A stretch of DNA of 64,000 nucleotides from Syncephalastrum monosporum B8922 (Eukaryota; Mucoromycota; Mucoromycetes; Mucorales; Syncephalastraceae): the NCBI GenBank assembly GCA_000697355.1, contig JNEN01000762.1:62001-126000 (forward strand), read 5' to 3'. The notes under the pieces were generated by a model. The model saw only the letters and a list, made by a program, of their open reading frames with translations, was not told the origin of the DNA and did no database searches. Positions 7,229-64,000 of this stretch are shown in pieces. Numbering within the stretch: the first letter of the stretch is position 1; each line of letters opens with the position of its first letter. Position numbers and translations under genes: made by a program.

Positions 7229-8485
7229 TCAGATAATGTCGTTCTGGATGGAATACTGGATGGCCGCATAACCGTCTGGCAGCGGATCATCAATCGCCAT
7301 GCCATTGTGGTCAGCAACCTCCTCGACAATGTCCAGCTCGGCTGTCAGGGGCATGTCCTCCCAGGGCTGCTCACCACGACGCAAGCGCACCGTATCAATG
7401 TCGACCTGGTCAAGGCGATCGAGCATGAGATCCTGCAGTGGCAGGCGGATCACTGCATTGGGGTCAAAGCGCTCGCGCGGGCTGGTCGGGTGGATGAGCT
7501 CAGGGAAGTCAGGTTTGGAGACATTGCAGCCCTTGAGGCCGATCATCTGTAGGTGCCGGCAGCGATAGATGAGGTGGCGTATGCAAGGTGCTGTGACTTC
7601 TTCGCAAAATGAAATGTCGAGGAAGACCAGGTCGCGCAAATGGTGTGCCATCGCATGAATGCTGATATCCGTGATCTCACATGCCATGAGCGTCAGCTCC
7701 GTGAGGTGCGGATGCAGCTCGATGAAGCGGTAGACGGCCGGGTCGGTCGGCTGCTGCTTGCGGCCGTCAATGGCAAAGCATGTCAGGCGGGGCAGCACGA
7801 CTTGGCCCGCGTCTGCGTCCCACAACAAGCGTTCCAAGAAGTCGTTCATGGGCATGAAGGCATTGTTGCAGCAGATGAGGTCGAGGTGCTTCAGGCTATC
7901 AAAGGCGCGCAGGTCACGCGCCGTGTCAGTCGCATTGACCCACGCGTTGCCTGTCAAGTCGAGGTACTCGAGCGGGCAGTCGGCGAAGGGCAGCAGCGTG
8001 AGCGGCGACAGGTGTTCGCAGTCCCGTAAAGTCAGGCTCTTCAGCCGCTGGCAACGGCCAAGATAATGCGCAGAGCGATAGGTGATGGCCGCGCCGTGCA
8101 GGAGCAGCTGCTGCAGGCCCGGACAATATCTAGACACATGGATCACACTAGTATCCGATAACAGCTGTGCGTGTGTCAGCTCAAGCACTTCGAGCTGCGG
8201 GAGATGGGGCAGCATGGCCAGTAATTCGTCATCCGACAACATGCTGTCCATAGCAAGATGCCGTACATGGTGTCCATGCTTGGCGGTCGTGCTGCTGTTG
8301 CAGGACAGGCACTGCGAAAAGAGAGCGACTCGCTCATTTTCTTTGAATTCGGGGGCTCGCCAGAGCGAAGGCGTCGCGTGTGACCGGAACCGTTTATCGA
8401 CGAGTGTGCATTGATAGAGGTCGGTCTGCGGTAAAAAGTACAAGACGAGACCGAGTATCTCCGGTGGTAGATGCTCAAATTGCAT
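7229..8485 (-). CDS. F-box / leucine-rich-repeat protein
   Basis: Single exon, 418 aa. It begins with an F-box (FEHLPPEILGLVLYFLPQTD, residues 3-22), the Skp1-binding motif of SCF ubiquitin ligases. Irregular leucine-rich repeats follow to near the C-terminus (LEVLELTHAQLLSD, LKSLTLRDCEHLSPL, LEYLDLTGNAWVN, LTELTLMACEITDISIH, LVFLDISFCEEVTAP, LQMIGLKGCNVS). These are the cysteine-containing LRR type of substrate receptors such as Grr1, Amn1 and Skp2. The open frame extends upstream to 8581, but those residues are hydrophobic and AT-rich; ATG 8485 sits one residue before the F-box and is preferred. The substrate is unknown. It is divergently paired with the SYP1-like gene. Confidence 0.85.
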   Translation of the reverse strand: MQFEHLPPEILGLVLYFLPQTDLYQCTLVDKRFRSHATPSLWRAPEFKENERVALFSQCLSCNSSTTAKHGHHVRHLAMDSMLSDDELLAMLPHLPQLEVLELTHAQLLSDTSVIHVSRYCPGLQQLLLHGAAITYRSAHYLGRCQRLKSLTLRDCEHLSPLTLLPFADCPLEYLDLTGNAWVNATDTARDLRAFDSLKHLDLICCNNAFMPMNDFLERLLWDADAGQVVLPRLTCFAIDGRKQQPTDPAVYRFIELHPHLTELTLMACEITDISIHAMAHHLRDLVFLDISFCEEVTAPCIRHLIYRCRHLQMIGLKGCNVSKPDFPELIHPTSPRERFDPNAVIRLPLQDLMLDRLDQVDIDTVRLRRGEQPWEDMPLTAELDIVEEVADHNGMAIDDPLPDGYAAIQYSIQNDII

Positions 8486-8825
8486 GAGGGTATGGACAAC
8501 AAAGAGAATTAGAAGAATAAAAAAGGTAAAATAAAGATAAAGTGAAGGTATTGAATATGGATTGATTACATAGGAGCGCAAAAGGGTGAGGTTTCAACCG
8601 CGCGCACACACACACAAGAGATTCCCAATATGCCCGTCCGTGCTATCTGTGTGACTTAATCCCCCATTTCTTCTCTGTCTTTCCTTCTACTCTACAACCC
8701 ACCCTCACTCATTCCAACATACATTGCTCTCATTGCACTGTAATACCATTACAAGACGCACAATCTTACTTTAATTCTCTCGTCACCCGTACTTTCCTTC
8801 TCTCTCTCGCACCACGAATGCTGCC
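8486..8825. promoter_or_regulatory. Divergent promoter between F-box gene and SYP1-like gene
   Basis: 340 bp separate the start codons of two genes transcribed away from each other. The half next to SYP1 is C/T-rich (8665-8815), typical of a fungal leader; the half next to the F-box gene is A/T-rich and holds a short CA run near 8608. No specific operator is recognised. Confidence 0.55.
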
Positions 8826-11800
8826 ATGACTGACCACTCGCATGCAATCTCTTACCCAGACACTTTTCTGGTAATACATACATATACATATACATATACA
8901 TAGACATGGACATAGACATGTATATCATATGAACGTCATATCATAATGACCACTCCTTGACAGACTGCGAGACCCAAGGACGGATACGACATTGTGCAGG
9001 ACCACCTCAAGGCGACGCGAACCCTCGACGACGAGCTCTCTCAGTACTTCAAAGAAAGGTCTGAATTCTGCATTTATTATAATTTAGAGTGGTTACTGAC
9101 CCCCCATTGTTTTCTTCATCTTTCTATTATTAATTTAGAGCTCATATCGAGGAGCAATATGCCCAGAGTCTCGTCAAGGCCTCCAAGAAGTTCTTTGTGA
9201 TGGACAAGACGTCGTTGGGGTACGGGTTGCAGTTTATATATAAGCGTTAAAAAGAGCAGTGTGTAACCTGCTTCTCCTGTGTAGCAAATTCGCTCCGACC
9301 TGGGAGCTCCTTTACAATGAACTGACGGAAATATCCACCGCCCATGCCGTGTTGGCCATGAAAATTGCCGAAGAAATTGAAAAGCCCCTCAGGAGCCCTG
9401 CCTCGTCCGACTATGACAGAATTAAACAGGCAAGTCCGTTGGGTCCGCTCCTCGAATGCGCAATAACATGACTGCAGATGGATCCTGCTGTGCACAGAAT
9501 CGTCAAGGATTATGACGACACCGCTAAAAAGGTAAGCCCAAGGAGCGTAGATCCTTCCGACAAACGCAGACGAAAATACTTTTTATTGTTGTTAAAAATA
9601 ACATACTCATAGGGCAAGAAATCCGGCGACAAGGCTGGCACCCTCCTCAAGCGTCTCAAGGATGGCAAGTCGAAAGGCTCTTCGGATGCAGCTCTGGCCA
9701 GATGGGTTCAAGAAGGTCCTGCTTACTTGGAGGTATGGTATTATTGCATTAAGCAGAAATTCAAAAAAAAAAAAAAATTCAGCCCTGCATTTGGTCTCCC
9801 AAATTGAGCACATGTTCACCCTCTTTTTTAATGTAGCACCATCAACACCTCGAGGAAGCCCGTCTCCATCGTCTCAAGAACCTTGTCGAAAAGTTTGAGC
9901 AGGTCCAAACTGATCAGATGCTCAAACGCATGGAGGCAAGTCAGATTAAATTTTGAACCTACCTCTTTGTATCATATTAACTCTCTTCATTTAAACTTTT
10001 TTCTTCATTTTTTAAAACAGATATGCAATGCAACGCTCATGTCGGCCAACGAATTTGAACCGCAGGTCGAGATGCTCGATTTCTGCGAAGCACATGGTAG
10101 AGGCCTTCGCAAACTCACCGATAACCAGCCACGACGCCCCAGCGTGGACAGCGCCATGCGCCCTCAACAGCAGCAGAGCTCCAGCACCCTGTCCTCGGAC
10201 GCACGCGACTCTCAATCTGTCCACTCCACCTCCCAGGAATCCTCCAAACCGTCCTCCAAAGCAAAGAGCTCTCTCAGGTCCTTTTCTCTGAGACGCAAGA
10301 CTCGCAACGGGTCCGCCACACGTTTACCTGAGTAAGTCGCCTATTTTCTTCGTTTTCGCTGCAAGGTCATGGGCTTACTGTTGTGCAGCACCGCGATCGC
10401 TACCATCGACGAAAGCGTGGAAACGCCCAGCTCACCGCCCTTTAGCCAGTCGGCCACGCACTTGCCTGCTACCGAGAATGGTTCATCCGGGCCAGACGTG
10501 GCTGCTGCTGCTACCACGAGCTCGCCGGATTTGACTGCCAACTCCATGCCCAATCTTCAGACCAGCCTCCAAGCGAGCCAGGTAAGCATGGACGCGGTTC
10601 TGCGAGTGTGTTTTTTTAATCAGCTTCTGCTTTAGGCCCCTGCTGTTGACTCTGAAGGCTTCTCCATCCCACCTGCCAATCGACAGTCCTTCATGCCCAT
10701 GGCAGACGCCACTGGCAGCCAATCACTCGATGAATTCGATACCGACAGCTTGCAGGCCGCGCAGCGCATTAAATTTGATATTCGTGACACGGCCGTCAAA
10801 ACCGACGAGGACAAGGAGGCCGATGCGACCATGACGCGCATGGCGACCCTGCTCCGTGCTGTAAGTGTTCTGCAAAGTCTATATCATATATCGCTGGACT
10901 CAATCGTATCAGAAAACACCCTCCGTGTCGAGGCGACCCCGTGGCCGTCGTGAGATGCGCAACAGTATGCAAGTCGACTCAACCGGTCAGTTAAGCCCCA
11001 TCCAGGTGGCAAAGTCAAGTACTACCGAAGACGCGCCCCAGACGGTCTCCTCCGGCTCGGCCTCGCCCACAAACCCCTTCCAAACCTCCATGGACGCCTC
11101 CACACCCACAAGCCTATCATCCAACGCAGCTTCGCGCAGCCCGTCCGTCTCCTCAGCAGCGCTCTTCTCCACCAGTGGCTCACCTGCTTCGCCTGCCCCG
11201 GAGCACGCTCAGTTATATGCCTCCATCGTCGAGACGGCTGAAACAGACGGACAAGGCTGCAAGCTGAAAGGTCAAGTGAAGCTCGTGTACAATGGTCCCA
11301 CCACCCAGGGCCCGCTCCTGTTCAAGCTGAACGGCAACGTTGATCTTGTGCCTGATCTCACCTATGTCGAGCCCTGGGGTGACGCCGAGAGTGCACTGTA
11401 TAACCTCAAGGCGGCAGCGTTTCCGCGCCGTACACCCATCTCCTGTTTTACCTATCAGGTTGACAACGTCCCTCGACCCGTCGAAATGACGCCGGCCTGG
11501 AAGTGCATCGAGGGCGCCAGCTTTTTGATCCTAAAGTACAAGCAGACCCTGGACAGACAAAAGAGTCAGGTAGCGACCTGCGTGAAGGTGGCGGCCGAAC
11601 CCACCATCACCGGTGTGCAGAGCACGCCTCAGGGCGGCTGGGATCCGAGCAAGTGTCAGCTGACCTGGTCTTCGCTCGAGGAAGAACAGGGCCGCTTGCT
11701 TGCCAAATTCATCGTGGAAGGTGTTGGCGAGCCGGGCTTAGTGGCGCTCAAGTTTTATTCAAAAGACACACTGCTCAGCGGCCTCAGTCTTGAGGCCGTC

Positions 11801-11872
11801 CCGGCCCATGGCTCCATTTTGGAACTCAAGCAGGTGCAGATGGTCACTCGCTCAGGGAAATATGTTGTCTAG
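8826..11872 (+). CDS. SYP1: Syp1/FCHo-type endocytic adaptor (F-BAR + mu-homology domain)
   Basis: Eleven exons (8826-8870, 8964-9058, 9139-9219, 9285-9429, 9478-9531, 9613-9732, 9837-9935, 10021-10331, 10389-10581, 10636-10860, 10913-11872) give 775 aa. The N-terminal ~250 residues are an F-BAR domain: YPDTFLTARPKDGYD, LKATRTLDDELSQYFKERA, IEEQYAQSLVKASKK, LEEARLHRLKNLVEKFEQ. A long S/T/P-rich linker follows. The last ~250 residues form a mu-homology domain (YASIVETAETDGQGCKLKG, then LVALKFYSKDTLLSG). This is the Syp1/FCHo layout: the protein bends plasma membrane and recruits cargo at early endocytic sites. Two introns, 9430-9477 and 9936-10020, begin with GC rather than GT (GCAAGT), required by reading frame in both cases. 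Confidence 0.9.
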
Positions 11873-23862: not shown

Positions 23863-24903
23863 TTACTGGGCAGCCTCAGCCTTGGCCTTGGCCTTGGCCT
23901 CCTTGACGGAAGAGGTGCGGCGACGCTCGGCCTTGTGCTTAGCCTGGGCCTGCTTAGCCTCCTTGGCGCGCTTGGCAAGGATCTGCTTGTACTCGGCCTC
24001 GGCCTCGCGGGAAGCCTCAGCGCGTCTGCGCTTGATGGCAACACGCTGGCGTCTGTGCTGGAGGGTGCGGGGAGTGACAAGACGCTGGATCTTGGGGGCC
24101 TTGGTGTAGGGCTTGGCGCCCTCCTTCTTGGGCTGAACCTCGCGGCGGATGACGTACTTGCGGACGTCGTCCTCCTTGGAGAGGTTGAAGAAGCGGCGGA
24201 TCTTGGAGGCACGCTTGGGACCAAGACGCTTGGGGACGGTCTTGTCGGTCAAGCCGGGAATGTCCTGCTCACCCTTCTTGACAACAACAAGGGACATGAC
24301 AGCGAGATCGGACGAGACGATGCAGCCGCGGACCGACTTTCTCTTGCGCTCACCCGTGCGGCGGGGGCGGTAGCACGAGTGGCCCTTGCCCATCAACAGA
24401 CGGACACGGTGGGGCACAAGGACACCCTGCTTCATCGGGAAACCCTGCTTGTCGTTACCGCCCGAAATGCGGAAAACGTAGCCCTTGAACTCGTCGCCAA
24501 GCGAATCGCCAGCAACCTGCTGGGACATGCGCTTGTCCATGAAAGCGCGGCTAATGGGAGGGAAGTCAAGTCAATATAATATGCTCGTGGTGTCCCGTTT
24601 CGTGCTCTATTCTCTATATCGTTCATGACACTCACAGGCGGCGCTCGTCCTCGATTTCAATCAGCTTCTGGCAGCCAGTGGCTGGGTTCGCAATGTTAAG
24701 CTACAAGTGGCAATGGAGAATGAGTACTGCATGTCATGTCAAGGATACAAAATTTTTGTATCCTCCCTCCCCCTTTGCATCTCGACGATCTTGGATGCAT
24801 CCATCCATCCAGAATGCCGTTCATCCATTGTCTTCGTGGTGCGTCGAGTCGTGTATCACGGGAGGGAGGGGTGTCTTTCGTGTGGTTGGGGCCATACCTT
24901 CAT
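23863..24903 (-). CDS. RPS6: 40S ribosomal protein S6 (eS6)
   Basis: Three exons: 24903-24898 (only ATGAAG), 24700-24636, 24550-23863; 252 aa. A small-subunit ribosomal protein and a classical target of S6-type kinases. Diagnostic stretches are [72 protein letters not shown] and [15 protein letters not shown]. The basic C-terminus ends with an RRRTSS kinase-type site and an A/K-rich tail. The two-codon first exon was deduced because exon 2 begins at LNI and the only in-phase start with a good donor is ATGAAG|gtatgg, 197 nt upstream. Codon use is strongly biased to C/G-ending codons, as expected for high expression. Confidence 0.95.
24743..24763. repeat. Perfect 10-bp inverted repeat in the first RPS6 intron
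   Basis: GGATACAAAA and its complement are separated by a single T, giving a 21-nt palindrome inside the RPS6 intron at 24701-24897. It could form a tight hairpin in the pre-mRNA or serve as a two-fold symmetric protein site. Confidence 0.8.
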
Positions 24904-44385: not shown

Positions 44386-45469
44386 ATGTCTGATCGCGAC
44401 AACAAAGAAGACAATGCGCCATCGCCACCACAGTCACCTAAAAACAATAACTCATCACCTGTCACTCGCTACTCTGCAGAGACTCTCTTGCGCCTGCGGG
44501 ACAGTCCTCTCGTAGAAAAACCGCCATCCATGCCTCCTCTTGCCACTTGGTTTGGGTAATTGAACACTCTCAATCGACACACCATCCTCCCGCCCGGTTC
44601 ATTCCTGAAGAATGCCGGGGACCGTGGCTGTCAATCCGTTACAACCAAGGCTAAACAGACTTTATTATGCATCCTAGGGATGATTCGGATACGCCTATCC
44701 CGAACAGTATATTAAACGGCTCTAGGTCCATAGGTAAGTGCCATAGAACCGCACGGGTGCCTGTTCGCCAAACTCATGTTGCCATAGAACCGCCCGTAGA
44801 TAAGAGTCACATCCTCCTTGCCCCGAACAAGTCCATCTTTTCCAATCCAGCCTTCAAACGAGATAACGACTCGAAATCTTCCATGCGTCACCGTCATGTA
44901 AACAGTGCTCCATTTCCTTCATTCTCTACTTTTTTACCCACGCACTCGTCTAACAAGGCCTCTTTTTCTCCTTCTCGACAGAACGACGACCGGACGCGAG
45001 ACTACCGCATGAAAACATCCCTGAATGGCGACAAGGGCATGCGAGACCGCAACAATGACCGCCGGCATACCAACAGCAATAACAGCAGCAACACGACCAT
45101 GACGGGCTCAAGGCACCGCAGCTCTTCACCCAACATGACGCGAGAACGCATCCACGAAAAGCGACGCGAGAGTATGGGTCTCGAGAAGGCGTATGCTTTT
45201 GAGCTGACTTTTCCTTTCGTTCAGACCTTCGCGACCGATCTAACCACCATCAGAGATACGATCGGTCACCGGAGAAGATCCCCGAATGGATGGACTACTC
45301 CCCCGAGGACGCAAAGCCTGCCAAGGAACAGCCCCTCGATGCCAATGATCTTGAAGCTTGGAAGTCCGGCTTGAAACAAAAAGAAAAGGAAAATGCAAAA
45401 GGTCTGATAAGAACAAAACGGCGGGAGGAAGAAAAGGAGAAAAAAGAAAACAGAGAAACTCATATGCGA

Positions 45470-45501
<32 letters not shown>

Positions 45502-47125
45502 GTAGATAATATCAAGACCGACCTCGACCAGCTCCTCGGCATCAAGTCAATGGACATCCAAGATCGCACAAGCAAACCTTCCACGGCCGAAAAGCCGACG
45601 GCGGCAGTACCAGGGGGAGGTGTCGACCTGTTTTCGACGCCCCTTTTCCCTTCGACGGCGTCGCCGAGCACGCGACGCGAGCAGCAAGGCTCCCGCTTTG
45701 CCAAATTCTTTTCCCAGCGGGACGAGGACGCGCGGAAACAGGAGCCCCCGTCCGAGTCGCAGCCGCGCTCGATCAGCGTCAACGACTTGTTTGGTAACAA
45801 GCGGATGATGGCGCCACCCACCACCAGCGATCATTCCATGCAACGACCCGAGAGTTCGCCGAGCGTGCACATGCTGTCCGAAGAAGAGGTGCTCAAGTCG
45901 CTCGGAGCCAAGCCATCCGAGCGCGGCCCGGAAGCGACGCCGCAGGATGCGGTTGGCTTTGACAAGGTGCTGCAGATCCTGTCGCAGCCCAAACCGGCCT
46001 CACCCTACCCGATGCGGATGGACGTCAAGGATCTGCCCGGGGAGCAGAACGCTCCGCCCGGTGTGGTGAGGGAAGGCAAGGATCTTGAAGCTCTCTTGAC
46101 GGGTCAGATCCAGCCCAGACCCGAAGCAGCAGGAACGACAGCTGTGACAGACCAGCCAGACCACCGGCACCACCCGCACTATCCGCATTATCCGCACCAG
46201 CACCCACACCAGCATCTCGTGTCCCAGCCGTCGCCTGTCGAAAAGGAAGCGCCCAAGGAGGAGAAACCCGAGACGCCATCGCAGAAGCCCAAGCTTGCGC
46301 ACAGCCGCTTCGCAGGCAACCTGCCGACGTCGGTGTTGCGCCAGATGAGCGCCAAGCAGTCGGGCAGCAAGTCGCCTTCGCTCGCGTCGACCAAATCCTT
46401 GGGCGCGCGGTCGCTCGGCAGCGGCTCCTCACCTGTTGCGTCCGCGCACGCGTCGCCTTCGAGCAGTGTCACCAAGACACCGACCGGCGGACACACTCCT
46501 CAGCAACAGCAGCAGCAGCCACCTCCGCCTGGGCCTCAGCAGCCGCAACAGCCTTCGCCGGGGTATCCGTTCCCACCCAACTTCCCGCAACACTCGCCCT
46601 CTTCCTCCCAGCAGCACCAGCAGCAACAGCAACAGCATCGCCTGCCTGGCTCATCGCCTTCGTACCCGCTGCACCCAAACCCGCACCTATCACCGATGGA
46701 TATGCGTGCTGCTCCGATGCCGATGGCGATGCATACCCCGATGGCGGGCGGTTCGGCCGCAGCGGCGGGGATGCCTATGATACCACCTGGAATGTCGTAC
46801 CGAAACCAACAGGACTTCCTTCCGCCGCATATGATGCAGCCCATGCCGCCCCCGATGCCTGGACCCGGCGGCATGATGCCACCTCCGCCCGGAGCGATGC
46901 CGCACCCGCACCCGCACCATCCGATGCAGGGCCAGGCCATGCAGTACCCGCCCGTCCGCGACATGATGCCCCCGCAAGAACCGTTTCTGCCGCCACACAT
47001 GATGGGCAATGGTAAACAAAAAGAAGAAAAGATGGTTTCTCAGGGCGTGCGCTAACAAGGGAGAATGATTGGTAGGCATGCCGCCTCACGTGTTTGCAAA
47101 GAACCAAGGTTGGGACCGTCGCTAA
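44386..47125 (+). CDS. eIF4E-binding protein, 4E-T-like
   Basis: About six exons (44386-44555, 44678-44733, 44788-45171, 45225-~45394, ~45454-47011, 47076-47125), near 795 aa. Residues 28-38 (RYSAETLLRLR) hold the canonical eIF4E-binding motif Y-x4-L-hydrophobic. Next comes an S/N/R-rich region, then RYDRSPEKIPEWM with DLEAWKSGLKQKE, resembling conserved blocks of metazoan 4E-T. The long tail is Q/P/H/M-rich (repeated MP, PPPG and HP runs) and ends MPPHVFAKNQGWDRR. 4E-T-type proteins repress translation and link eIF4E to mRNA decay in P-bodies. The junction near 45395-45453 is the weakest: phase demands a change of frame there, and a GC-AG intron is the best fit. Retaining the 54-nt intron 44734-44787 would keep the frame open. 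Confidence 0.7.
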
Positions 47126-47316: not shown

Positions 47317-48174
47317 TTAGAGTAGCTGGAAGGCAACCGTACATGTCTGGGCGCCCTTTTGTCCTCCAAACGAAAAGACGGGTGCGTCTACTTGTGAGTG
47401 ATAGCGGAAATCTACACGGAAGAAGACAAAGAGAGAGAGAAAGAGAGAGAGTGTGTGTGTGTATTTAGTACCCATGTCCGAACGTTTGATAAGCAGGACT
47501 TACAAGGAGCAAAATGCTGCTTAAGCTCTTCCACGGTCCAATTACAGCTGGTGATCAGAAAGAAACTGCCAATCGGTTTCATCATCTGGCTGACGCTGGC
47601 GAGATAGTTGCGGCGGGCCTGGAGCTTATCTGCGCTCAGCGAGATGGCGTCGTAGGTGCCCTTGTCCAAGATGACATCAAAACGATGCTTCTGCACAAAA
47701 GAACCGTTGGGGTCGAGGATGTCGACGGTATCGAACTCGACGGGTATGTCGTTGTCTTTGGACAGCTTGCGGGCGAGGCGCGTGGCGATAGAGGAGTAGT
47801 CGACGCCGGTCAGCTCGGAGTAGCCCGACTTGCCAATCTCGAGCAGCAAGTGGCCGTTGCCGCAGCCCAGGTCGAGGAAGCTCTTGCGCTGGTCCACGAC
47901 ATGCGTCCGAATCCACTGCAGCATGCGCTGCTCTGCCTGATGTCCAAACCTGTGAACGGTTGAGTTCAGTCTGTGGCGCGATGGTCAAATAGAAAGAATT
48001 ACCAGATCTCGCCTTCGTCGCCATGATCGGTGTAATTCTCATATTCAGCCTCGTAAAAGTTATCCCAGCTAGGGGTAGAGCGGGTCAATACAAGAGCACC
48101 GCTTGGCTCTGTCTCACTTACTGGTCCTTGGTGCCCAGCTTGGAGGGAGCAAAGTCACCGTCGTCTTCGGCCAT
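47317..48174 (-). CDS. EFM4: eEF1A lysine methyltransferase Efm4 (METTL10-like)
   Basis: Four exons (48174-48122, 48068-48003, 47949-47504, 47387-47317) give 211 aa. A seven-beta-strand SAM-dependent methyltransferase: SFLDLGCGNGHLLLEIGKSG (motif I), LTGVDYSSIA (acidic end of strand 2), FDTVDILD, and DVILDKGTYDAISL, whose DKGTxDAI sequence marks the Efm4/METTL10 group that methylates a lysine of eEF1A. The N-terminus (MAEDDGDFAPSKLGTKDHWD) and ENYTDHGDEGEIWFG fit the family, as does the terminal FSFGGQKGAQTCTVAFQLL. The last exon was placed from phase and this conserved ending. Divergent from the membrane bZIP gene; 215 bp between start codons. Confidence 0.88.
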
Positions 48175-48389
48175 GGCAAAAATCAGTTAATACTTTTTTT
48201 TATATATTTGGCGGTGGAAGCTGTGACACAAATGCAGCCGCGCGCGCGCGCGCAGTTTCCCCTTGATTTCCCTTTCCCTCATTTTCTCTTTTTTTTTTGG
48301 TTCTGTTTCTGGTTCTTTCCATTTCCTCGTTCCTCCCTTTTCCCCTCCCTTCTTTCTCCACCAGCTACCAGCGGCCTCAGCACTCGACT
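48175..48389. promoter_or_regulatory. Divergent promoter between EFM4 and the bZIP gene
   Basis: 215 bp. Contains a T-rich run near 48200, a (CG) tract GCGCGCGCGCGC at about 48240-48251, and a strongly C/T-rich leader at 48256-48360 before the bZIP start. Confidence 0.55.
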
Positions 48390-50525
48390 ATGGCACAACC
48401 ACCAGCCCACACGGTGAAACCCGATCCAGCAGCCCAGGAAGAACAGGATGATCTCCTCATGTCGTATCTGAATGCAGACTGTCTCGACACTGACACCACC
48501 ACAACCACAACCACACAATGGAGTCCGTCCGACCAACCACTCTCGCCGCCCTACTCCACCGACGGCAAACCACTGGCAAACGACCCGCCGGACGTCCATG
48601 CTGCAGTGGCGGCGATGGACCAGACCCTGGATGTCAACAGCCTCTTGCACGAATTCCCTCAGTGGCTGCAGCAGCACCCGCAGGCACACCCGCAATACCC
48701 GCTCATGGCCCCCGATCTCTTCCTCAACTTCCCCATGCAAGCCGCATTCCTCCAGCCACCGTTCCCCGCCCAGCCAGGCCATGCGCTCTCGCCCGGCACC
48801 TGCTCTGCCGCCTCCTTTTCGTCCTCGTCGTCGTCCTCGTCTGGCTCCCATTCCGGCTCGGATTCCGAACAACCCAAAAAGAAACGCGGCCGCAAGAAGC
48901 GAGAGCCTCAAACGCAGCCTGCGCTTCCATTCCAGCACACTCCCCAACACGCGATACCCCCTACGTTGCTTCCACGTATCCTGCCCGCCGAAATGAAAGC
49001 GGAAGCTACACAAAACAACAACATTTGTAACAGCAACAGCAATAGCAGCAGCAACCATCACACTCATACCTCCTCATCCCCTTCTTCCACGTCCTCTTCC
49101 ACCTCACCGTCCGCCTCAAACACCTCAACCTCAACGCCAAAGACATCCATTTCGCCCGCGCGCCCTGACCAGCAGCACGTTCGGTCCTCACCCCCTGTCG
49201 TCGTCAAAACGGAAGAGCCTCACCCACTCCTCTGCAACGAAGACCAGCAAAAGGTCTCGGCCCTCGCCAAGCGCCAAGAACGACTCATCAAGAACCGTGC
49301 GGCAGCGCTCCTGTCGCGCAAGCGCAAGCGAGAGCACTTGACTGCGCTCGAAGAAGACAAGCGCAACCTGACCCAGGAAAACGAGCAGCTCAAGACACGT
49401 GTTGCTGCGCTGGAGGCCCAGGTGGGCCACCTACAAAAGGAGAACAACGACCTCTGGCGACGGGTCAACTCTCAAACCGACCCTGACTCGCATTCGCGTG
49501 CGCTTTCCACCACAACGAAAAACGCCACGACCAAGGCCACCGGCATGGTCTTCATGGTAAGTAAAATCCCCTACCACCCGTCCCCCCCCCCCCCCCCCCC
49601 CAATTCACTGTACTCTAATTAAACTTTTCCGCTTGTACTCACTTTTTTTTATTTTTTCACAGATAATCTTGTTTTCCTTTGCATTGTTTTCCCTCCCCGG
49701 GAGCACCATCACCCGCTTGACCGTCGGCGGTGCACCCAAGCCATTGACCCTTGCAGGAGCCGGAGCCGACCAAGCGTAAGTGACCCTCAGATTTTAGAGA
49801 TGGCCCAATCGCTCTAACCTGGGGGATGTATATTTAGATCGTTTGCTAGGGAGAGCGGGGAATTTGTTCGGCCAACGTTGGACAGTGGCGTGCCTGTGCG
49901 CTCAAAGTCCGCGGAGTCCACCACGACTGATTTGGTGCTTATTGATCCTGTGCGACCGCTCGCCCTCCGAAGCTGGATTGAAGGCAAGCTCAACAACACC
50001 CACGAGACCGGCCTCGTCCGCTGGTCCTCTGTGTCGTCCGACCCGCAACTGCAGGATGAGGATGGCGCCACCGGCAACAGCCACACGAAGCCCTCGCAGA
50101 TCTACCTCTACGCCCCCGAGTTCTCGCAGGTCGCGCCTTTCAACACCTCCATGGCCACGCCGATGGCGGGCGGCGGCGGAGACGTGCACCCTATCTTATC
50201 GCTCATATCGCCCTTGTCATCTCAAAAAGCGGCCCAATCGAACGATACCGCACCCAGAGATGCCCAGGAATACCTTCAGATCGACGTCCAAGTCCTCGCC
50301 TCACGTGTCATTGACGGTCAGCTGATGGCCCTCAATCAGTGCCCGCACGCGACCTCGCTCCTTGACCGGCTCAAGGACGATCTCGTTGGCTCCCCGGCTG
50401 CAGCCTGCCAGACCCCTCCACTGGTCAAGGAACCGGTCGGGAACGAGCGGCGGCTCAACAAGGACATGCGACGGAAAATGGTCGGCGAGGACAGGGCTCG
50501 CAAGGTGGCCCGCGTCATGATGTAG
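48390..50525 (+). CDS. bZIP transcription factor with C-terminal transmembrane segment (ATF6/CREB3-like layout)
   Basis: Three exons (48390-49556, 49663-49775, 49838-50525) give 655 aa. The N-terminal ~290 residues are acidic and S/T/Q/P-rich, as in activation domains, with a KKKRGRKKR basic cluster. The bZIP (about 293-350) reads KRQERLIKNRAAALLSRKRK then REHLTALEEDKRNLTQENEQ, followed by leucine heptads. About 40 residues later, spanning the exon 1/2 junction, is a hydrophobic helix (MVFMIILFSFALFSLPGS, ~386-403), then TRLTVGGAP and a ~250-residue C-terminal part. Basic domain, zipper, single span and luminal tail is the ATF6/CREB3 layout: ER-anchored factors released by Site-1/Site-2 proteolysis. 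That mechanism is inferred from layout only. ATG 48390 follows a C/T-rich leader. Confidence 0.78.
49582..49601 (+). repeat. 20-nt poly-C tract in a bZIP-gene intron
   Basis: An uninterrupted C run within the intron 49557-49662, near the donor end. Its exact length may be affected by sequencing. Confidence 0.9.
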
Positions 50526-53400: not shown

Positions 53401-54788
53401 ATGGCCTCCCGTATCCAGCAAGTCTCTTCCCACCTGTCTCCCTCTGACAACGTCGCCAACAAGGTTGGTGTCAAGTCGCCTGAGGATGTTGTCATCGTCT
53501 CCGCCCTCCGATCGGCCATCACCCGTGCTCGCAAGGGTGGTTTCGCCGGCTCCCTTCCTGAGGGTATGTCATACAATTTAATTGTGTATCGCAGTGTCAC
53601 TCATATTATGGCATATCATGTACAGAGATCCTGTCGGGTGTCTTCAAGGGTGTCCTTGAGCAGACCAAGATCGACCCTGCTCTTGTCAACGACATTGCTG
53701 TTGGCAATGTTCTGCCCGCTGGCGGTGGAGCCACCAACGCCCGTATGGCCGCCCTCCACGCTGGCTTCCCCGAGAGCACCTCGGTCAACACCGTCAACCG
53801 TCAGTGCTCGTCTGGTCTCCAGGCTGTTGTCCAGATCGCCACTGCCATCCAGACCGGTATCATCGAGGTCGGCATTGGCGCTGGTGTCGAGTCCATGACC
53901 CACAACTACGGCCCCCAGTCGCTTGCTCCCTCCTCGGACAAGATTGCTGAGAGCTGCCCCGCTGCTGCTGACTGCTTGGTTCCCATGGGGTAAGTAACAA
54001 GCAAACACACACGATTAGCATGAAAAAGCGTGGTGACTAATGCGAATTCTAAATTTCTTTTAATCAGTATCACCTCCGAGAACGTCGCTGCCGAGTTCAA
54101 GATCTCCCGTGAGAAGCAGGATGCCTTCGCCGCTTCGTCGCACACCAAGGCCGTCGAGGCCCAGAAGAACGGCTGGTTCAAGGAGGAGATCGTCCCTCTT
54201 GAGGCCGTTGTCACCGACAAGGACGGTAACGAGAAGACCGTCATCGTCGACCGTGACGATGGTGTCCGCCCTGGCACCACCGCCGAGAAGCTCGGCAAGC
54301 TGCGCCCCGCTTTCGATGATGAGGGCTCCACCACCGCCGGTAACGCCTCCCAGGTCTCGGACGGTGCTGCTGCCGTCCTGCTCATGAAGCGCAAGACCGC
54401 CGAGAAGCTCGGCCTCAAGATCCTCGGCAAATACATCACCTCCGCCGTCGTCGGTGTGCCCCCTCGCGTCATGGGTATCGGCCCGGCCTTCGCCATCCCC
54501 GTCGCCGTCGAGCGCGCCGGCCTGACCATCAACGATGTTGACATCTTTGAGATCAACGAGGCCTTCGCCTCCCAGGCCGTCTACTCCGTCGAGAAGATCG
54601 GTGCCCCCATCGAGAAGGTCAACCCCAAGGGTGGTGCCATCGCCTTCGGTCACCCTCTCGGCTGCACCGGTGCCCGCCAGATCGCTACCCTCCTCCCCGA
54701 GCTCAAGCGCCAGGGTAAGAAGATCGGTGTCACCTCCATGTGCATTGGTACTGGTATGGGTATGGCTGCTGTCTTTGAGAGCGAGTAA
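53401..54788 (+). CDS. POT1: Peroxisomal 3-ketoacyl-CoA thiolase
   Basis: Three exons (53401-53563, 53626-53989, 54068-54788) give 415 aa. It catalyses the last step of peroxisomal beta-oxidation, cleaving 3-ketoacyl-CoA to acetyl-CoA and a shortened acyl-CoA. Residues 4-12 (RIQQVSSHL) are a perfect PTS2 signal (R-I-x5-H-L), so import is expected through Pex7 and the Pex14 docking complex encoded at 38.3 kb. Catalytic residues: Cys115 in VNRQCSSGLQ, the NEAF loop, His in AFGHPLGCTGARQ and Cys in SMCIGTGMG. Codon use is strongly biased to C-ending codons, implying high expression. That bias also produces a long antisense ORF, not a gene. Confidence 0.96.
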
Positions 54789-56601: not shown

Positions 56602-58514
56602 ATGGCACCCATCCTCCATCAAAAGGCACTCCTTCCTACGGGAGAAGAACTCGAGCGTATGTTCCGCTTTGCAGGGAGCCAACGAGGGTACTCTATATAC
56701 TCATATGAAAACAATCCCTGTAGTCAACGTTGGTCTGTTCATAAACAACGAATTCGTTCCAGGCGCTTTCACGATTGACACCGCGGACCCGTATACTGGG
56801 AAAGTGATTGCTTCCGTCCACGCAGGTACTATCCTTGACATATAAGACACACACGCATCGGAATTCACACATGAGAAAAGCTGGAGTCGAAGAAGTGAAC
56901 CAAGCCGTGGAAGCGGCTGAGAAGGCGTATAGAGGCGCTTGGGGGAAGACGACGCCTCGGGAGCGCAGTCGACTTTTGAATAAACTCGCTGACTTGGTGG
57001 AGCGCGACCGGGAAGAAATCGCCCGAATCGAGACACTCAACAATGGCAAGCCCCTCACTGCGTCTCGCAAGATTGATACCGCCGGTGTCATTGAGCTGCT
57101 GTAAGTCTGTCTCTGTCGTATGCACCTGTACTAAACAGGACATGATGCAGACGCTATTTCGCCGGCTGGACAGATAAGAACCACGGCAAAGTGATTGATA
57201 CCCAGGGGACACTCGCGTACACCCGCCATGGTAAGTAATATCATGTGCCCCACTATGAAAGTAACACCTTGTAGAACCTCTTGGTGTTATTGCCAGTGTG
57301 CTCCCGTGGAATTACCCGCTGCTCATGATGGCCATGAAGCTCGCACCCGCGCTGAGCATGGGTAACACCATCGTGTTCAAGACGTCTGAGCTGACTCCAT
57401 TGTCCGCTCTCAAGATTGCCGCGCTGATCAGGGAAGCTGGCTTTCCTGCTGGTGTGGTCAATGTCCTGACAGGGTACGGCCATGAGACAGGTGAGATGCT
57501 GTCTCGGCACATGGGCGTACACATGGTCACCTTCACGGGCAGCACCGCCGTGGGCCGCAAGATAATGATAGCGTCGGCTGAATCCAATCTAAAGCGCTAT
57601 ATCCTCGAACTTGGTGGCAAGTCCCCCAATATCGTCTTTGACGACGTTGAAGACCTCGACCAAGTCGTCGAGTGGTCTCATTTTGGCATGTTCCTGAACG
57701 CTGGCCAGATATGCTATGCCGGTACGCGTATCCTTGTCCAAGATACCATCTACGATCAGTTTGTCGAAAAGTTTTGTGCCCGTGCTCGCCAAGCCAAACT
57801 CGGGGATCCTTTTGATCCGACTACTACGCAGGGTCCTCAGATATCTTCCTTGCAATGCGAGCGGATTGTGTCCTACATCGAATCGGGCAAAAGCCAAGGT
57901 GCCACTCTCGCTCTCGGTGGAAATCGTTTTGGCACTGCAAAGTCTTTTGTCGAGCCGACTATCTTTACAGGTATGTCCTACCGGTTCAAACTGAATCGAT
58001 GCTTATGCACTGAATTTTTTTCCTCTTAAACATAGATACCGACGTCTCTATGAAGATCATGCAAGAAGAAATTTTCGGCCCTGTCGTTTGTATCACCAAA
58101 TTTACTGACGAAGACGATGCCATCCGAAAAGCCAACTCGACCCACTATGGTCTCGCGGGTGCTGTGCATACCTCCAGCATCGCACGTGCCATCAAGATCT
58201 CGGACAGAATTGAATCAGGCACTGTTTGTAAGTAAACATGGAAGGAGCTAGCACCACAATGATGCTTGGCTTGTACTCACTCGAGACACTTGCATACTCA
58301 GGGGTCAACGCATATGGCATGATGGAGGATGTCTCAATGCCATTTGGTGGCTATCACCAGAGCGGCTCTGGTCGAGAACTTGGGGAGGACTGTCTCAAGC
58401 ATTATACTCAGGTATGGAATGCCTACAGCTCTTAATGTATATCTGCGTATGCTTAAACATATCACGTTGCAGGTCAAGTCGGTCAAGATCAACATTGGCA
58501 AACCGGCATATTAA
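56602..58514 (+). CDS. NAD(P)-dependent aldehyde dehydrogenase
   Basis: Eight exons (56602-56656, 56724-56825, 56881-57100, 57151-57230, 57275-57970, 58036-58227, 58302-58411, 58473-58514) give 498 aa, the usual length of ALDH1/2-type enzymes. It oxidises aldehydes to acids. Motifs in order: LFINNEFVPG, NNGKPLTASR, VLPWNYPLLM, TFTGSTAVGRKIM (cofactor), LELGGKSPNIVF (catalytic Glu), NAGQICYAGTR (catalytic Cys at the position of Cys302), IMQEEIFGPVV and PFGGYHQSGSGREL. No presequence or peroxisomal C-terminal tripeptide is evident (ends GKPAY), so it is probably cytosolic. The residue after the catalytic Cys is Tyr. Substrate preference cannot be read from sequence. Confidence 0.93.
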
Positions 58515-59596: not shown

Positions 59597-60159
59597 TTAT
59601 GCGTGCATCGTTGAGGATGGGCGTTCGGTAATACTAGTAGCGGTGGTAGATGAAACGGCGGCGGCCGTGGCCGCTTCAGGAGGAGAATGAGCAGGAGAAG
59701 GTGTAGAAGGAGATTGTGGTGGAGCAGCAACACTGTCTGTAGTATCAGGCTCGTGAAGAGGCGGGGGGTCTGACGCAGAACGAGGCCGGTGGGAGTGGGG
59801 TCGGTGCTGCGAAGGTGGAGCACTCGACTGGTGTGGGACAAATGAAGACGAGAATCCGGGGTCCATGATAGCCAGCTGCTCGACCAAAGCAAGAACACGA
59901 TGCATGGACGTTCGCGAACTTTCGAGCTGCAGGCTCATGTAGATCTGCACGAGGTCTTGTCCGATACCCTGAAGCACCCGGCTGTCCTGGTGGTACCGAA
60001 ACTGCGCATTGTTCAATACGTCTTGATAGAACTGGTGGCCAATGCGGCACAGATGCGAACACAGACTGGTGACCGAAACAGTCGCAAACGGCCAAGTGTG
60101 CTGGTCAAAGTTCTCCTCGAAATCCTCGTCCTTGGTATCGCCAAGAGTTTCCGCGGAGG

Positions 60160-60200
<41 letters not shown>

Positions 60201-61507
60201 TGATGTGCTGCATTGTTGTGAGGTGCTGCAGCAGACGTGGCTGTGGTGTGTGTGCCTGGATCGACCGCCAAAGACGAAGGTGGCTCAGCCGTTTCGTCGG
60301 TCGTATCGTCATCGTTTGCATTGGCTCCTGCCGAGTGCAAGAACCGAGTGCCGAGGGAGTTACTGCTGCTGGTGTTGGACCTTGACTGCCTGCGTCGTTT
60401 GAAGAGTCCAAATAAGAGTGGGTGGTACGGCCTGCGTGGTTTGAGGAGGTCGGCCCATTGCCAGGGGGCGGGCACAAAAACGGGTGTTGGCATGGAGACA
60501 ATAGGGAATTCGTTGGCACTACGTGTCGGATACCATATTAAGGATGGTGTTGTGGTGGCCGTCGTGAGCCTGAACGGCCGCGGGCCTTGGCTGATCTTAC
60601 GCCGCCGTACGACAATATGATTATCGCCACTGCTAAGATGGGCGTCTTGGTCAATACTCAGCCTACGATGACGATGATAGTTATCCGCATCGTCGTCGTC
60701 ATCGTTGCTGCTGCTACCGCTGCTATCGACCTCGACTTCCACGGTGAAGACACGTTCGTACAGACGGCGAAGGAGCCGGGCGAGGAGGGTGGGACGAGCG
60801 AGACGGGCCTGGCCATCGATCTGAGATAGATTGTGGTGTGCGTTCTGCATAAAGACGGAGGCGAAACGGTGGCAAAGTTCGGCGATGGCGTCAATCTGCT
60901 GCGAGCGGCTAAGACGGCTGCATTCAAAGACGATTTGCCGGGAGCCCAGCGCCCTTCGTTTCAGGCCGAGCTGAGCGTAATTTTGGCGGTCCACCGTCAC
61001 CACGTACGTTCCTGGGCGCGTTCCGTACGAGGCAAGAATAGAGGACATTATGTTCTCGACTTGCTCGGGTCGCTTCCATGCTTTCCGCAGAAACGTGCAG
61101 TCGTCCAGCAGTCGAGTCAGGACCGCATGTTCTCTGCTCTTGTCGTCGTACTGCTGACTCAACTCATGCCAACTGCCGATCAGCTCATGGATCTGCTCCT
61201 CGCTAAGGTTGGCCCGAATCCGCCGCTGTCGACAGGCGATCTCGTAATACTCGGCCATTTCGAGGGCGGTGCGTTCGAGCGTGGTGCGGAGGCTCTGGCC
61301 GTTTGGGCCACCTAAAAGACCGACCACAGGCACAAAGCGCTGCACTTGTTGCATCGTTTGCCGGATACGCTGCAGCTGTGGCGCACTGCAAACTTGTTGC
61401 TCTGCGCAAAACCGCTGTTGAGCCTCCGAGCAAAAGACGTCCAGCAGATCGTTCAGCTCTTGGTACACTTCTCCTGCCGTCTGACGTCCTGCTGCCGAGT
61501 CACTCAT
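59597..61507 (-). CDS. Hypothetical 636-aa protein with alanine tract
   Basis: Single exon, 636 aa. Residues ~1-245 look folded and alpha-helical with conserved-type composition (VYQELNDLLDVFCSEAQQRF, TALEMAEYYEIACRQRRIRA, LIGSWHELSQQYDDKSREHA). A segment with beta character follows (GTYVVTVDRQNYAQLGLKRR, QIVFECSRLSR). The middle is disordered: a D/N-rich run, basic KRRRQSRS, and a 13-residue alanine tract from GCA repeats. Around 480-560 a second helical block occurs (VSVTSLCSHLCRIGHQFYQD ... IYMSLQLESSR). The tail is S/T/P/H-rich. I do not recognise any domain. The long intronless frame, coherent composition and C/T-rich leader on the minus strand support a real gene. Start ATG 61507 (MSDSAAGRQ). 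Confidence 0.7.
60164..60199. repeat. (CTG)n trinucleotide run encoding poly-Ala
   Basis: About 12 CTG units on the plus strand, read as GCA (Ala) codons by the minus-strand gene. Confidence 0.9.
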
Positions 61508-64000
61508 TGAGCGGGTTACTGCTATTCTTTGTGATAATGTGCTGCTGCTCTGATGGATGCTACTCGTTGCTGTCGATACGTGATTGTCGATGCTCTCCCC
61601 AATGATGGCCGCCGGTCTGTTTGTAGATCACACGCGAGCCAGATATATAAAAAAAGAAAAAAAAAAAAGAGAGGGAAAGGGGGAAGTCAGAATCAACCGC
61701 TTGCAATAGGAGAAAATATCTCAAGCGATCAAGCGATTCAAGAGGAGGGGGAGAAAAGAAGAGAAGAAGGGAACCGAGAAGAGTAGTAGAAAAAAGAAAA
61801 AGAAAATCCTCTGCTGAGGTTGCGTAAACAAGTACGAGAATATAAAAAGAAAAACTCGGTCTGCGCTTTATCCAAATGTGGCTCTACAGAATCGTGAACG
61901 CGCGCACGTATGCAAGTGAAAGTAATAGCAAAAGAGAAGAAAAAAAACCAGGTACAATCCGCAGAAAGGGAGGGGGGAAGGAAATACACCCTGTCACTAA
62001 GCATCAACACATTATTTATGGCAAAACAAAAGAAAATCCATGTTGCTGTCCATTATCTTCATGCTTACCTCAGGGCAATTCTTGCTTCATTCGCGAGACT
62101 TGGATATTCGAATCTTTTTTTTTCCAAACCTTGGACGCCCGCAGTGTTGCACAAGCCATCTTTTTGCGGCACGGGTACATGAGCCGTCAGGGCGAAAATG
62201 AACAATGGGCGAGGCAAGCCCTTCGTAATTTCTCGTGTTACACAGAACAATGGTTCGGTCTCTCGTTTTATCATCATTTCTTGCTCTTTGTACTATGCTA
62301 CTGGCTATGGGGTCGAGATCTTCCGTTCCTTTTTCTCACACATACACACGCACACCCCGGGGGCGCGCGATGTCCAATGCACGGGAACGTTCGCCAGCTT
62401 CGTAAGCGAACTTGTTTCTTGTCGAACCCAAAAACGCCCTAATTTTTGCTCCCTCCTACGCTTGGCCCAAATCCAGACCTTTGTTATTGTTGCTGCGTGC
62501 TGAGACTGTACTTTATCCGTCTTCTCTGTGCGTTTCGGCCCGTGTTTGTGTACTATGGCGTTAAGTGTACGTGGTTGTACGCCGCTCTTTCCTTTATCTA
62601 CTTGCTTTGCACAGCACTGACACGCGGTTCATCCCATCACCAACGTGTACACGGTTTCGCAAACAGGTGCCATCAGGAGTTTCTCGTTGAGCAACAAAAA
62701 AAAAAGACGAATAAATAATAACCAAGACGCAGCTCGCCCCCGAGATTTTCACCATGCTGTTATATACCTAGGCGGTCTCTCCTAAAACTTAAAATCTGTT
62801 TTCATAAATAATGCCCATTTTGTCAAGTGATCAAAACAATGCTGCAATTCGTCGCCCTGTTCAAAATGCATATCCAGAACCCTACATCCACGTTGTATGT
62901 AGATCGACATGAAATAGCACTGAAGCGCCCATACACATGTGAGCTATTGTAAGCTGTTCATGTCGTACTGTACATGTATCTTGCAATTACATCGTTTATT
63001 GATTATTGTCAATGACGCGATATGTTTTCGTGCAACGCCAATTCTATTCATGTCCGACATGCCCAATGCGTCTTTCACTGGGCATTTAATGCGGCACAAG
63101 TTCCAATGAGAGCGAAGCTCTTTAGGGTGGTATCTCGCGCACCAAACATTTTTTGATGTGGCGGGCGTATAGGAATATGTTGCCGCTCTGGCAAATGTCA
63201 TATGTGCTCTTTAGACGCTCTAGCTCTAGTAGAAAAGCTATAAAGCTTCAGCCCCGGCTGAGTAATACTTCGCGAAAGGATAAACAGGGCAAGTTCGCTG
63301 GTTCTCAATCGCTTGCAAGAAGCTCGGTCAGCTTCCGAGGCTTCTTTTCTTTTTCTTGAATAGGATGTTCGCCTCGTGGTCTATCGTGCTGCTGTTGCTG
63401 GTCGTTACATTCTTGCAAGTAGCCGACAAAGCGCCTCCTACAACGCGCGAAATGGCCCTTGCAAAAAGTAGAAGTACGCATCCAGTCTTCCAGTGAATTA
63501 TCTCAAACGTTCTGTTAATGCAAACCGAAAGCGTGTACGGATAAACCAATTTTACATTAAAATATAATTTATCATTCCTTATTGGATGGTATTTCGACCT
63601 ACACGCGTCAGGAAAAGGGCAAACATTTTTGCCAAGCCTTCCAGTTGACTTTTAGTGTTTTGACTACCGGTTGCATGTAACAGTATTTTTGGCCATTTTT
63701 TAACTGATCCGGTATATCTGTTGAATGAACTTGCTACCCCGACATCTAACTTCTGGTTGTTGCGCATTTACAAAAGCTCACTCTGCAGTTGCGAACTTTG
63801 AACATTTATGCTGATAATCTTACTTTGCCCGCGATGCTCTTCTCCTCTTTCTCCCCATGAGCATATCGTTATTAGCCACCACTAAGGTCATTTAAACAAG
63901 AGGGTCGTGACTCACTTCCTGATGAAATTTTGCTCTCGTCCCACGAAGCTAATCATAAAAATTGAAAAAGGTCAAATAATACAGCGGCTGTATCGATTGT
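61508..64000. other. Terminal 2.5 kb, no gene supported
   Basis: Starts with a purine-rich (plus-strand) leader of the 636-aa gene, 61640-61820. Beyond that only short ORFs. Two fragments look slightly protein-like. One is on the minus strand at about 63010-63150 (WCARYHPKELRSHWNLCRIK, with spaced Cys/His). The other is on the plus strand at 63240-63355. Neither has splice partners or a recognised family. Confidence 0.45.

Follow-up and report, generated by a model that had tools for sequence, protein, structure and literature searches.

An unfolded protein response run by IRE1 is attributed to fungi or yeast, and ATF6 to animals, with bZIP28 as its counterpart in plants, in the available parts of PMC10512342 and PMC3935401. 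A bZIP gene of Syncephalastrum monosporum B8922 raised the question of whether some fungi hold a membrane-anchored sensor of the ATF6 kind as well. The gene lies in the window, by which we mean the whole stretch of 64,000 nucleotides that was analysed (contig JNEN01000762.1, positions 62,001 to 126,000, forward strand). The predicted splice model placed it at 48390-50525 on the plus strand, running from ATG to TAG through three exons (1968 nt including the stop) and encoding 655 residues. In a 26-row family alignment (A1), junction 1 of this model matched the database protein P0001 of Syncephalastrum racemosum without a gap, and P0001 carried two additional residues beside junction 2. The features of the gene up to and including its exons are as follows.

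48390..49556, plus strand: exon 1, carrying the N-terminal low-complexity region, the bZIP and GMVFM, the first five residues of the span (splice model, in agreement with P0001 in A1)
48867..48905, plus strand: basic stretch EQPKKKRGRKKRE, with the A1 consensus EQPKKKRGRKKR
49266..49445, plus strand: bZIP domain, residues 293-352, basic region KRQERLIKNRAAALLSRKRKREH (PF00170, PF07716)
49542..49556, plus strand: first part of the span, GMVFM, stopping exactly at intron 1
49557..49662, plus strand: intron 1, 106 bases, GTAAGT...CAG, within the codons of the span
49663..49701, plus strand: second part of the span, IILFSFALFSLPG (splice model, A1)
49663..49775, plus strand: exon 2 (splice model)
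49711..49731, plus strand: TRLTVGG stretch, just past the span
49838..50525, plus strand: exon 3, the bulk of the ATF6-like tail through the stop codon (splice model, A1, tail comparison)

Intron 2, 62 bases between exons 2 and 3 (49775/49838), ends in GTAAGT...TAG. The first-pass annotation had drawn the gene with two exons; its frame, coordinates and order of parts held, and its "exon 2" turned out to be exons 2 and 3. The layout that it had read from the letters, a bZIP, then one hydrophobic helix, then about 250 residues, was recovered with the span about 30 residues past the zipper and a tail of 253 residues. The basic stretch at 48867..48905 is a possible nuclear localisation or AT-hook-like signal. 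Within the 246 bases at 48165-48410, no ERSE, UPRE, CCACG, CCAAT or ACGT element was found.

Upstream of the bZIP gene, a methyltransferase gene occupies 47412-48174 on the minus strand (PF13847, 60.5 bits on 47415-47984); its start, placed by eye, lies about 215 bases away, and the two genes are apparently transcribed divergently. Elsewhere in the window, Pfam matches were obtained for a thiolase (54024-54785, plus), an aldehyde dehydrogenase (57265-58026, plus), ribosomal protein S6e (23866-24570, minus), a muniscin mu-homology domain (10865-11869, plus) and an F-box/LRR protein (7232-8593, minus). Two long open frames, 45355-47055 (plus, 566 residues) and 59600-61627 (minus, 676 residues), had no Pfam match at 0.001.

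Relatives of the window protein were collected in two protein searches, which gave the best 120 of 181 and the best 120 of 183 matches and scored only 7995 or 7996 word-sharing candidates. The closest relative among the matches listed was P0001, 85% identical over the searched part, and the named relatives among them included Mucor, Rhizopus, Absidia, Umbelopsis, Endogone, Mortierella and Calcarisporiella, as well as Basidiobolus, Entomophthora, Massospora, Thamnocephalis, Spiromyces and Coemansia. The layout of bZIP, span and tail recurred in the Mucorales, Umbelopsis, Endogone, Mortierella, Basidiobolus, Entomophthora and Coemansia. When this layout was defined as a bZIP, a span and a tail of more than 150 residues with a [QRK]xD motif, 96 of 161 sequences (160 listed relatives and the window protein) passed, and 88 members were left once near-copies had been removed. 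No yeast, mushroom (Dikarya) or chytrid name stood among the matches listed, in searches that scored word-sharing candidates only. A Mucor circinelloides entry, P0108, is titled 'positive regulation of ATF6-mediated unfolded protein response' and is without the tail motif.

To which bZIP proteins the window gene is closest was examined with Pfam, with profiles and with a tree. PF00170 matched its bZIP at 36.0 bits (cut-off 27.6) and PF07716 at 27.2 bits. Searches of the same genome covered 27.5 Mb on 198 contigs and returned 31 bZIP matches; among the 29 loci examined from these, an ATF6 bZIP profile ranked the window gene first with 42.7 bits, followed by 29.5 and 25.7 bits. When whole shark ATF6 was searched against the genome, a paralogue on contig C112 came first (E 2.2e-6), then the window gene (5.6e-6; 47% identity over query residues 218-283) and, in third place, another bZIP (4.2e-5). 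An unrooted bZIP tree of 26 rows and 56 columns (midpoint-root drawing), whose sampling does not tell ATF6 from CREB3, joined the fungal family, the C112 paralogue and ATF6 against six other bZIPs of the genome, the HacA-like one included, with support of 90/87, below the star threshold of the tool. One fungal row of this tree grouped with ATF6 at 88/64, and long branches were flagged. The basic regions differ, ATF6 having NRESAxxSR where the window protein has NRAAALLSR.

The C112 paralogue (C112:5600-7750; L053, L034) is a second bZIP whose basic region is identical to that of the window gene. It likewise breaks inside the span, between GVMLM and V, followed by LLLFSFVAYLP, and its tail is apparently very short; from these features it may be an anchored bZIP lacking a sensor domain.

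The hydropathy of the window protein placed its span at residues 385-402, with a peak mean Kyte-Doolittle value of 2.28 over 17 residues. When the region past the zipper was shuffled 5000 times, 59 shuffles gave a peak this high; taken alone, the peak goes only modestly beyond chance. We took the span as real on account of its conservation in the family, hydropathy alone being too weak: the A1 columns G385, M389, F393, S394, F395, F398, L400 and P401 are at least 90% invariant, and the motif (K/R)(A/T)TG(V/M)VFMIILFSFALF(S/T)LP belongs to the most strongly conserved stretches apart from the bZIP. With hydropathy and family conservation together, the protein is predicted to have one span shortly past the zipper, as ATF6 has, and the fungal span is of matching strength, since ATF6 spans gave 1.9-2.45 by the same measure (11 rows). 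The net charge of the 15 residues before the span exceeded that of the 15 residues after it in 80 of 88 members, which fits a cytosolic N-terminal bZIP and a luminal tail.

The interruption of the span by intron 1 could offer another way to a soluble factor. If intron 1 were retained, the predicted product would be a read-through protein of 410 residues without the full span. In 25 of the 160 listed relatives, likeness to the family stops directly past the same M, as in frames entering an unspliced intron, and the position of the intron within the span is therefore probably widely shared. Of these 25, 23 came from sources listed as lgn or jgi, as would be expected of unspliced genomic frames; the other two are database entries for named species, P0103 from Mycotypha africana, which stops 7 residues past the M, and P0148 from Chlamydoabsidia padenii, which stops 16 residues past it. 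Intron 1 also contains a run of 20 C. Retention could thus give a soluble bZIP and splicing the anchored form, with regulation through RNA and not proteolysis, on the pattern of plant bZIP60 or fungal HAC1. The read-through isoform predicted from the window, the common breakpoint, shared also by the two database proteins P0103 and P0148, and the similar break in the C112 paralogue are consistent with such a switch. However, the intron ends are ordinary GT...AG, an ancient intron requires no regulatory role, models that read into introns are a frequent annotation error, and the deeply conserved tail would be left with little purpose; we consider a splicing switch improbable. Introns 1 and 2 both read GTAAGT...AG, and a non-spliceosomal intron of the HAC1/XBP1 type cut by IRE1 was not found in them.

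The tail was then set against the luminal domain of ATF6, with bZIP and span removed on both sides. The ATF6 set started from the best 120 of 564 proteins (E up to 0.01), of which a hydropathy rule kept 107, the other 13 being dropped because 7 lacked the bZIP pattern and 6 had short tails; redundancy removal then left 72 tails. A profile of the 88 fungal tails scored these at best 25.4 bits (Xenopus), with a median of 13.2. Of 4392 decoys made by shuffling or reversal, 4240 were scored, the best of them at 9.2 bits, so that 59 of the 72 ATF6 tails stood above every scored decoy and 13 did not. Comparison of the two profiles gave a score of 30.8, against a maximum of 25.5 in 500 column-shuffled controls and 15.1 for the reversed profile. 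With hhalign, the probability was only 16.6-16.8% (pairwise P 0.0015), and the global mode returned a score of 2.8 and no useful alignment, from which we conclude that the signal is local and short. A stricter span pattern, which left 10 ATF6 tails (2 non-redundant), gave 6.5% and P 0.0056. The tail appears to contain a luminal-type domain related to that of ATF6, clear against decoys and weak by hhalign (16.6%). The landmarks of the window protein are as follows.

49962..49979, plus strand: ALRSWI, collinear with ATF6 ELRGWV; the W-motif is in 87 of 88 members
50097..50138, plus strand: QIYLYAPEFSQVAP, its partner unsettled between ATF6 LQVYYASPRSYQDFF (profile methods) and the later TFYVVSFRRDH (MAFFT)
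50193..50213, plus strand: ILSLISP, collinear with ATF6 KMSIVLP; in 87 of 88 members
50271..50309, plus strand: YLQIDVQVLASRV, collinear with ATF6 MMQIDCQVMDTRI; in all 88 members, by selection

The order of the W, LSxxxP and QID landmarks was kept between fungal and ATF6 tails in every alignment. In the two best Xenopus tails, ELRGWIHRH, VYYYSPRSYQ, RPKMSIILP and MMQIDCEVMDTRIL aligned in order with the fungal stretches dLqtWi, ayLYskelsq, rprLSLlSP and YLqiDVeVlgSrvv. When 12 fungal sequences were aligned with 7 of ATF6 in MAFFT, W, LSxxxP and QID were matched in the same way and the fungal YLY was paired differently. Conservation is poor in the half of the tail nearest the membrane. An invariant cysteine upstream of the W in ATF6 is absent from the window protein, and a similarly placed one occurs in Basidiobolus (P0094). 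Fifty of the 88 members have an N-glycosylation sequon upstream of the W landmark, in one column in 41 and in a neighbouring one in 9, close to the place of INRTES or INTTES in ATF6; the window protein is without it. Tail sequons numbered 210 against 176.8 expected, a weak enrichment by a test that fails to separate the two sides of ATF6 itself. No Pfam model covered the tail of the window protein or that of Xenopus ATF6 (P0258). Among solved structures, the best match of the family profile to overlap the tail was a sulfate-binding protein at E 0.046, which was not significant and was set aside; shark ATF6 matched only two chains, both in the bZIP region.

Could this likeness have arisen without common descent? 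A soluble bZIP might independently have gained a hydrophobic segment and a tail, the resemblance to ATF6 being convergence or chance, and the shuffle result for the hydrophobic peak and the low hhalign probability would agree with that. It would leave unaccounted for, however, the decoy and shuffle controls exceeded by the tail, the landmark order shared with ATF6, the bZIP ranking closest to ATF6 and a layout conserved over many fungal genera, and we hold it to be very improbable. Because the tail scores beyond decoys, the landmarks keep their order and the bZIP ranks closest to ATF6, the window gene is probably related to ATF6 by descent and more than a look-alike. The relationship of the tail to the ATF6 luminal domain appears to be the new result of this study.

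Candidate machinery for release was sought in the same genome. A Site-2 protease gene was found as a single M50 match (PF02163, 37.9 bits, contig C104), in which HEAGH, PGAFVNI...QLRIICAGVWHN (also read PGAFVNI...LQLLGPKSQLRIICAGVWHN) and LNILPVFQLDG could be read; we take these pieces to be the Site-2 protease signature. The genome also carries an IRE1-type RNase domain and Dsc3. The partners that the first-pass annotation had pointed to, S1P and S2P or the Dsc complex, were thus present in part, S2P and Dsc3 being found and S1P not. The S1P result, from three models for parts of that protease (PF23090 and PF23094, each at E up to 0.001, and PF23001, at E up to 1) run with no eukaryotic positive control, is suggestive. 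Subtilases were represented by 24 matches to PF00082 at 20 loci; the Ser or His motif was readable in 17, which by eye look to be of the kexin or ordinary subtilase type. At C154:46400-48600 (L046) lies a further bZIP, RILRNRAAAQESRDKKRRYV, presumably HacA-like from its resemblance, and the classical IRE1 target is therefore probably present too.

The TRLTV just past the span had been put forward as the point where a Site-1-type protease would act, and as a conserved site it did not hold up. The surrounding [LIVMA][TAM][VI]GG is found in 72 of 88 members, and just ahead of (L)TVGG only 28 of the 88 have R, 25 having T, 17 Q, 1 L and 1 P, the motif being absent in 16. S1P-like patterns are R..L, R..[LV], R.L[IL] and R.[LVIF][LVIKT], and these were counted within 60 residues of the span in the 88 members and in 200 shuffles. 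R..L (33 of 88; shuffle mean 27.1, maximum 43) and R.[LVIF][LVIKT] (17; mean 19.6, maximum 30) were not enriched. R..[LV] (56 of 88; mean 39.6, maximum 52) and R.L[IL] (15; mean 4.5, maximum 9) exceeded all 200 shuffles, with kinship among the rows inflating the figures. The window protein has RLTV (407-410) and RPTL (438-441) and no R.L[IL]. An S1P-like cut may occur, but among the 88 members no S1P-type site was found at one fixed, conserved place.

Taken from sequence comparison, the reading that we favour and regard as likely is that the gene product is a relative of ATF6 in fungi, anchored in the ER, whose bZIP would be freed under stress in an S2P-dependent manner alongside IRE1. The membrane-tethered and possibly proteolysis-gated factor of ATF6/CREB3 order proposed in the first-pass annotation is strengthened by the ATF6-like tail and the S2P gene. 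The protein would cross the ER membrane, its bZIP facing the cytosol and the ATF6-type tail facing the lumen. Luminal stress would lead to a cut in or beside the span; the first cut might fall to a rhomboid, to the Dsc route used for fungal SREBP or to some other protease of the secretory pathway, and the last cut would be made by the Site-2 protease of the genome. The freed N-terminal bZIP part would then enter the nucleus and switch on secretory-pathway genes beside IRE1. The proposed release follows what is known for ATF6, for which the available part of PMC8616143 provides the precedent.

A tethered bZIP of this build might instead answer a signal other than unfolded protein, for example a lipid, a sterol or stress in the Golgi, as SREBP or CREB3 proteins do. 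Divergence of the tail is strong except at a few landmarks, and S2P and Dsc3 would be common to SREBP-type signalling, yet the landmarks that are kept are those of ATF6 (CREB3 being known here by description only), and we think this unlikely.

Previous reports touch on this at several points. A survey of bZIP proteins that had Mucor circinelloides among its species grouped ATF6 and HAC1 by the bZIP, and the domains beside the bZIP, an ATF6-specific one included, were undetected in fungal orthologues according to its available text (PMC4736632). That negative may not bear on the luminal tail, as the ATF6 domain there is apparently the transactivation domain. PERK-like kinases have been reported in anaerobic fungi (PMC10512342, in part). 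In the excerpts of a vertebrate screen of membrane-bound regulators, the fungal candidate is of the NDT80 type and not a bZIP (PMC13294678). The word ATF6 is absent from PMC10608004 and occurs only in the references of PMC4891664. Among the papers listed in text searches of the open-licence literature, no title or opening of an abstract announced a fungal ATF6.

On a broader scale, there is a proposal to which we give slightly less than an even chance: an ATF6-type sensor with a luminal domain would already have been present in the ancestor that animals and fungi share, would still serve as a second branch of the unfolded protein response beside IRE1 in Mucoromycota and Zoopagomycota, and would have been lost toward yeasts and mushrooms, with release by S2P, no canonical S1P and possibly a soluble form made by retention of the intron in the span. 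A tail akin to the luminal domain of ATF6 in many fungi outside the Dikarya would shift the origin of the sensor back to the opisthokont ancestor and make fungi usable for the study of ATF6-type sensing; it suggests that some fungi have a second protein-folding alarm, which textbooks credit to animals and plants only. It could also bear on secretion and lipid production, for which Mortierella and Mucor are used.

Among known systems, CREB3/OASIS proteins consist of a bZIP, one span and a tail, an order that the window protein shares, the likeness being by description only. Plant bZIP28 and bZIP60 are likewise membrane-anchored bZIPs in ER stress, likened by description; for bZIP28, release takes both the Site-1 and the Site-2 protease (PMC3935401, in part). 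HAC1/HacA is also a bZIP that may serve the same stress, and the genome holds an IRE1-type RNase and the HacA-like L046; HAC1 is controlled through Ire1 splicing of its mRNA (PMC10608004, in part), whereas the introns of the window gene have ordinary GT...AG ends. Fungal SREBP, with its Dsc complex and a rhomboid or S2P (Stp1), is a membrane-bound factor freed by proteolysis, and S2P and Dsc3 occur in this genome, but SREBP is a basic helix-loop-helix protein and not a bZIP (PMC3894159; for both points, the available parts of the sources). From ATF6 the window gene differs in that the S1P models had no match here and no S1P-type site is conserved at one place; for these reasons, and because the basic region differs, we did not file it as a plain ATF6 member. 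In other respects it resembles ATF6: both have a bZIP followed by one span and by a tail in which the landmarks W, LSxxxP/MSxxxP and QIDxxV keep their order, ATF6 was the closest to its bZIP among those tested, and there is an S2P in the genome.
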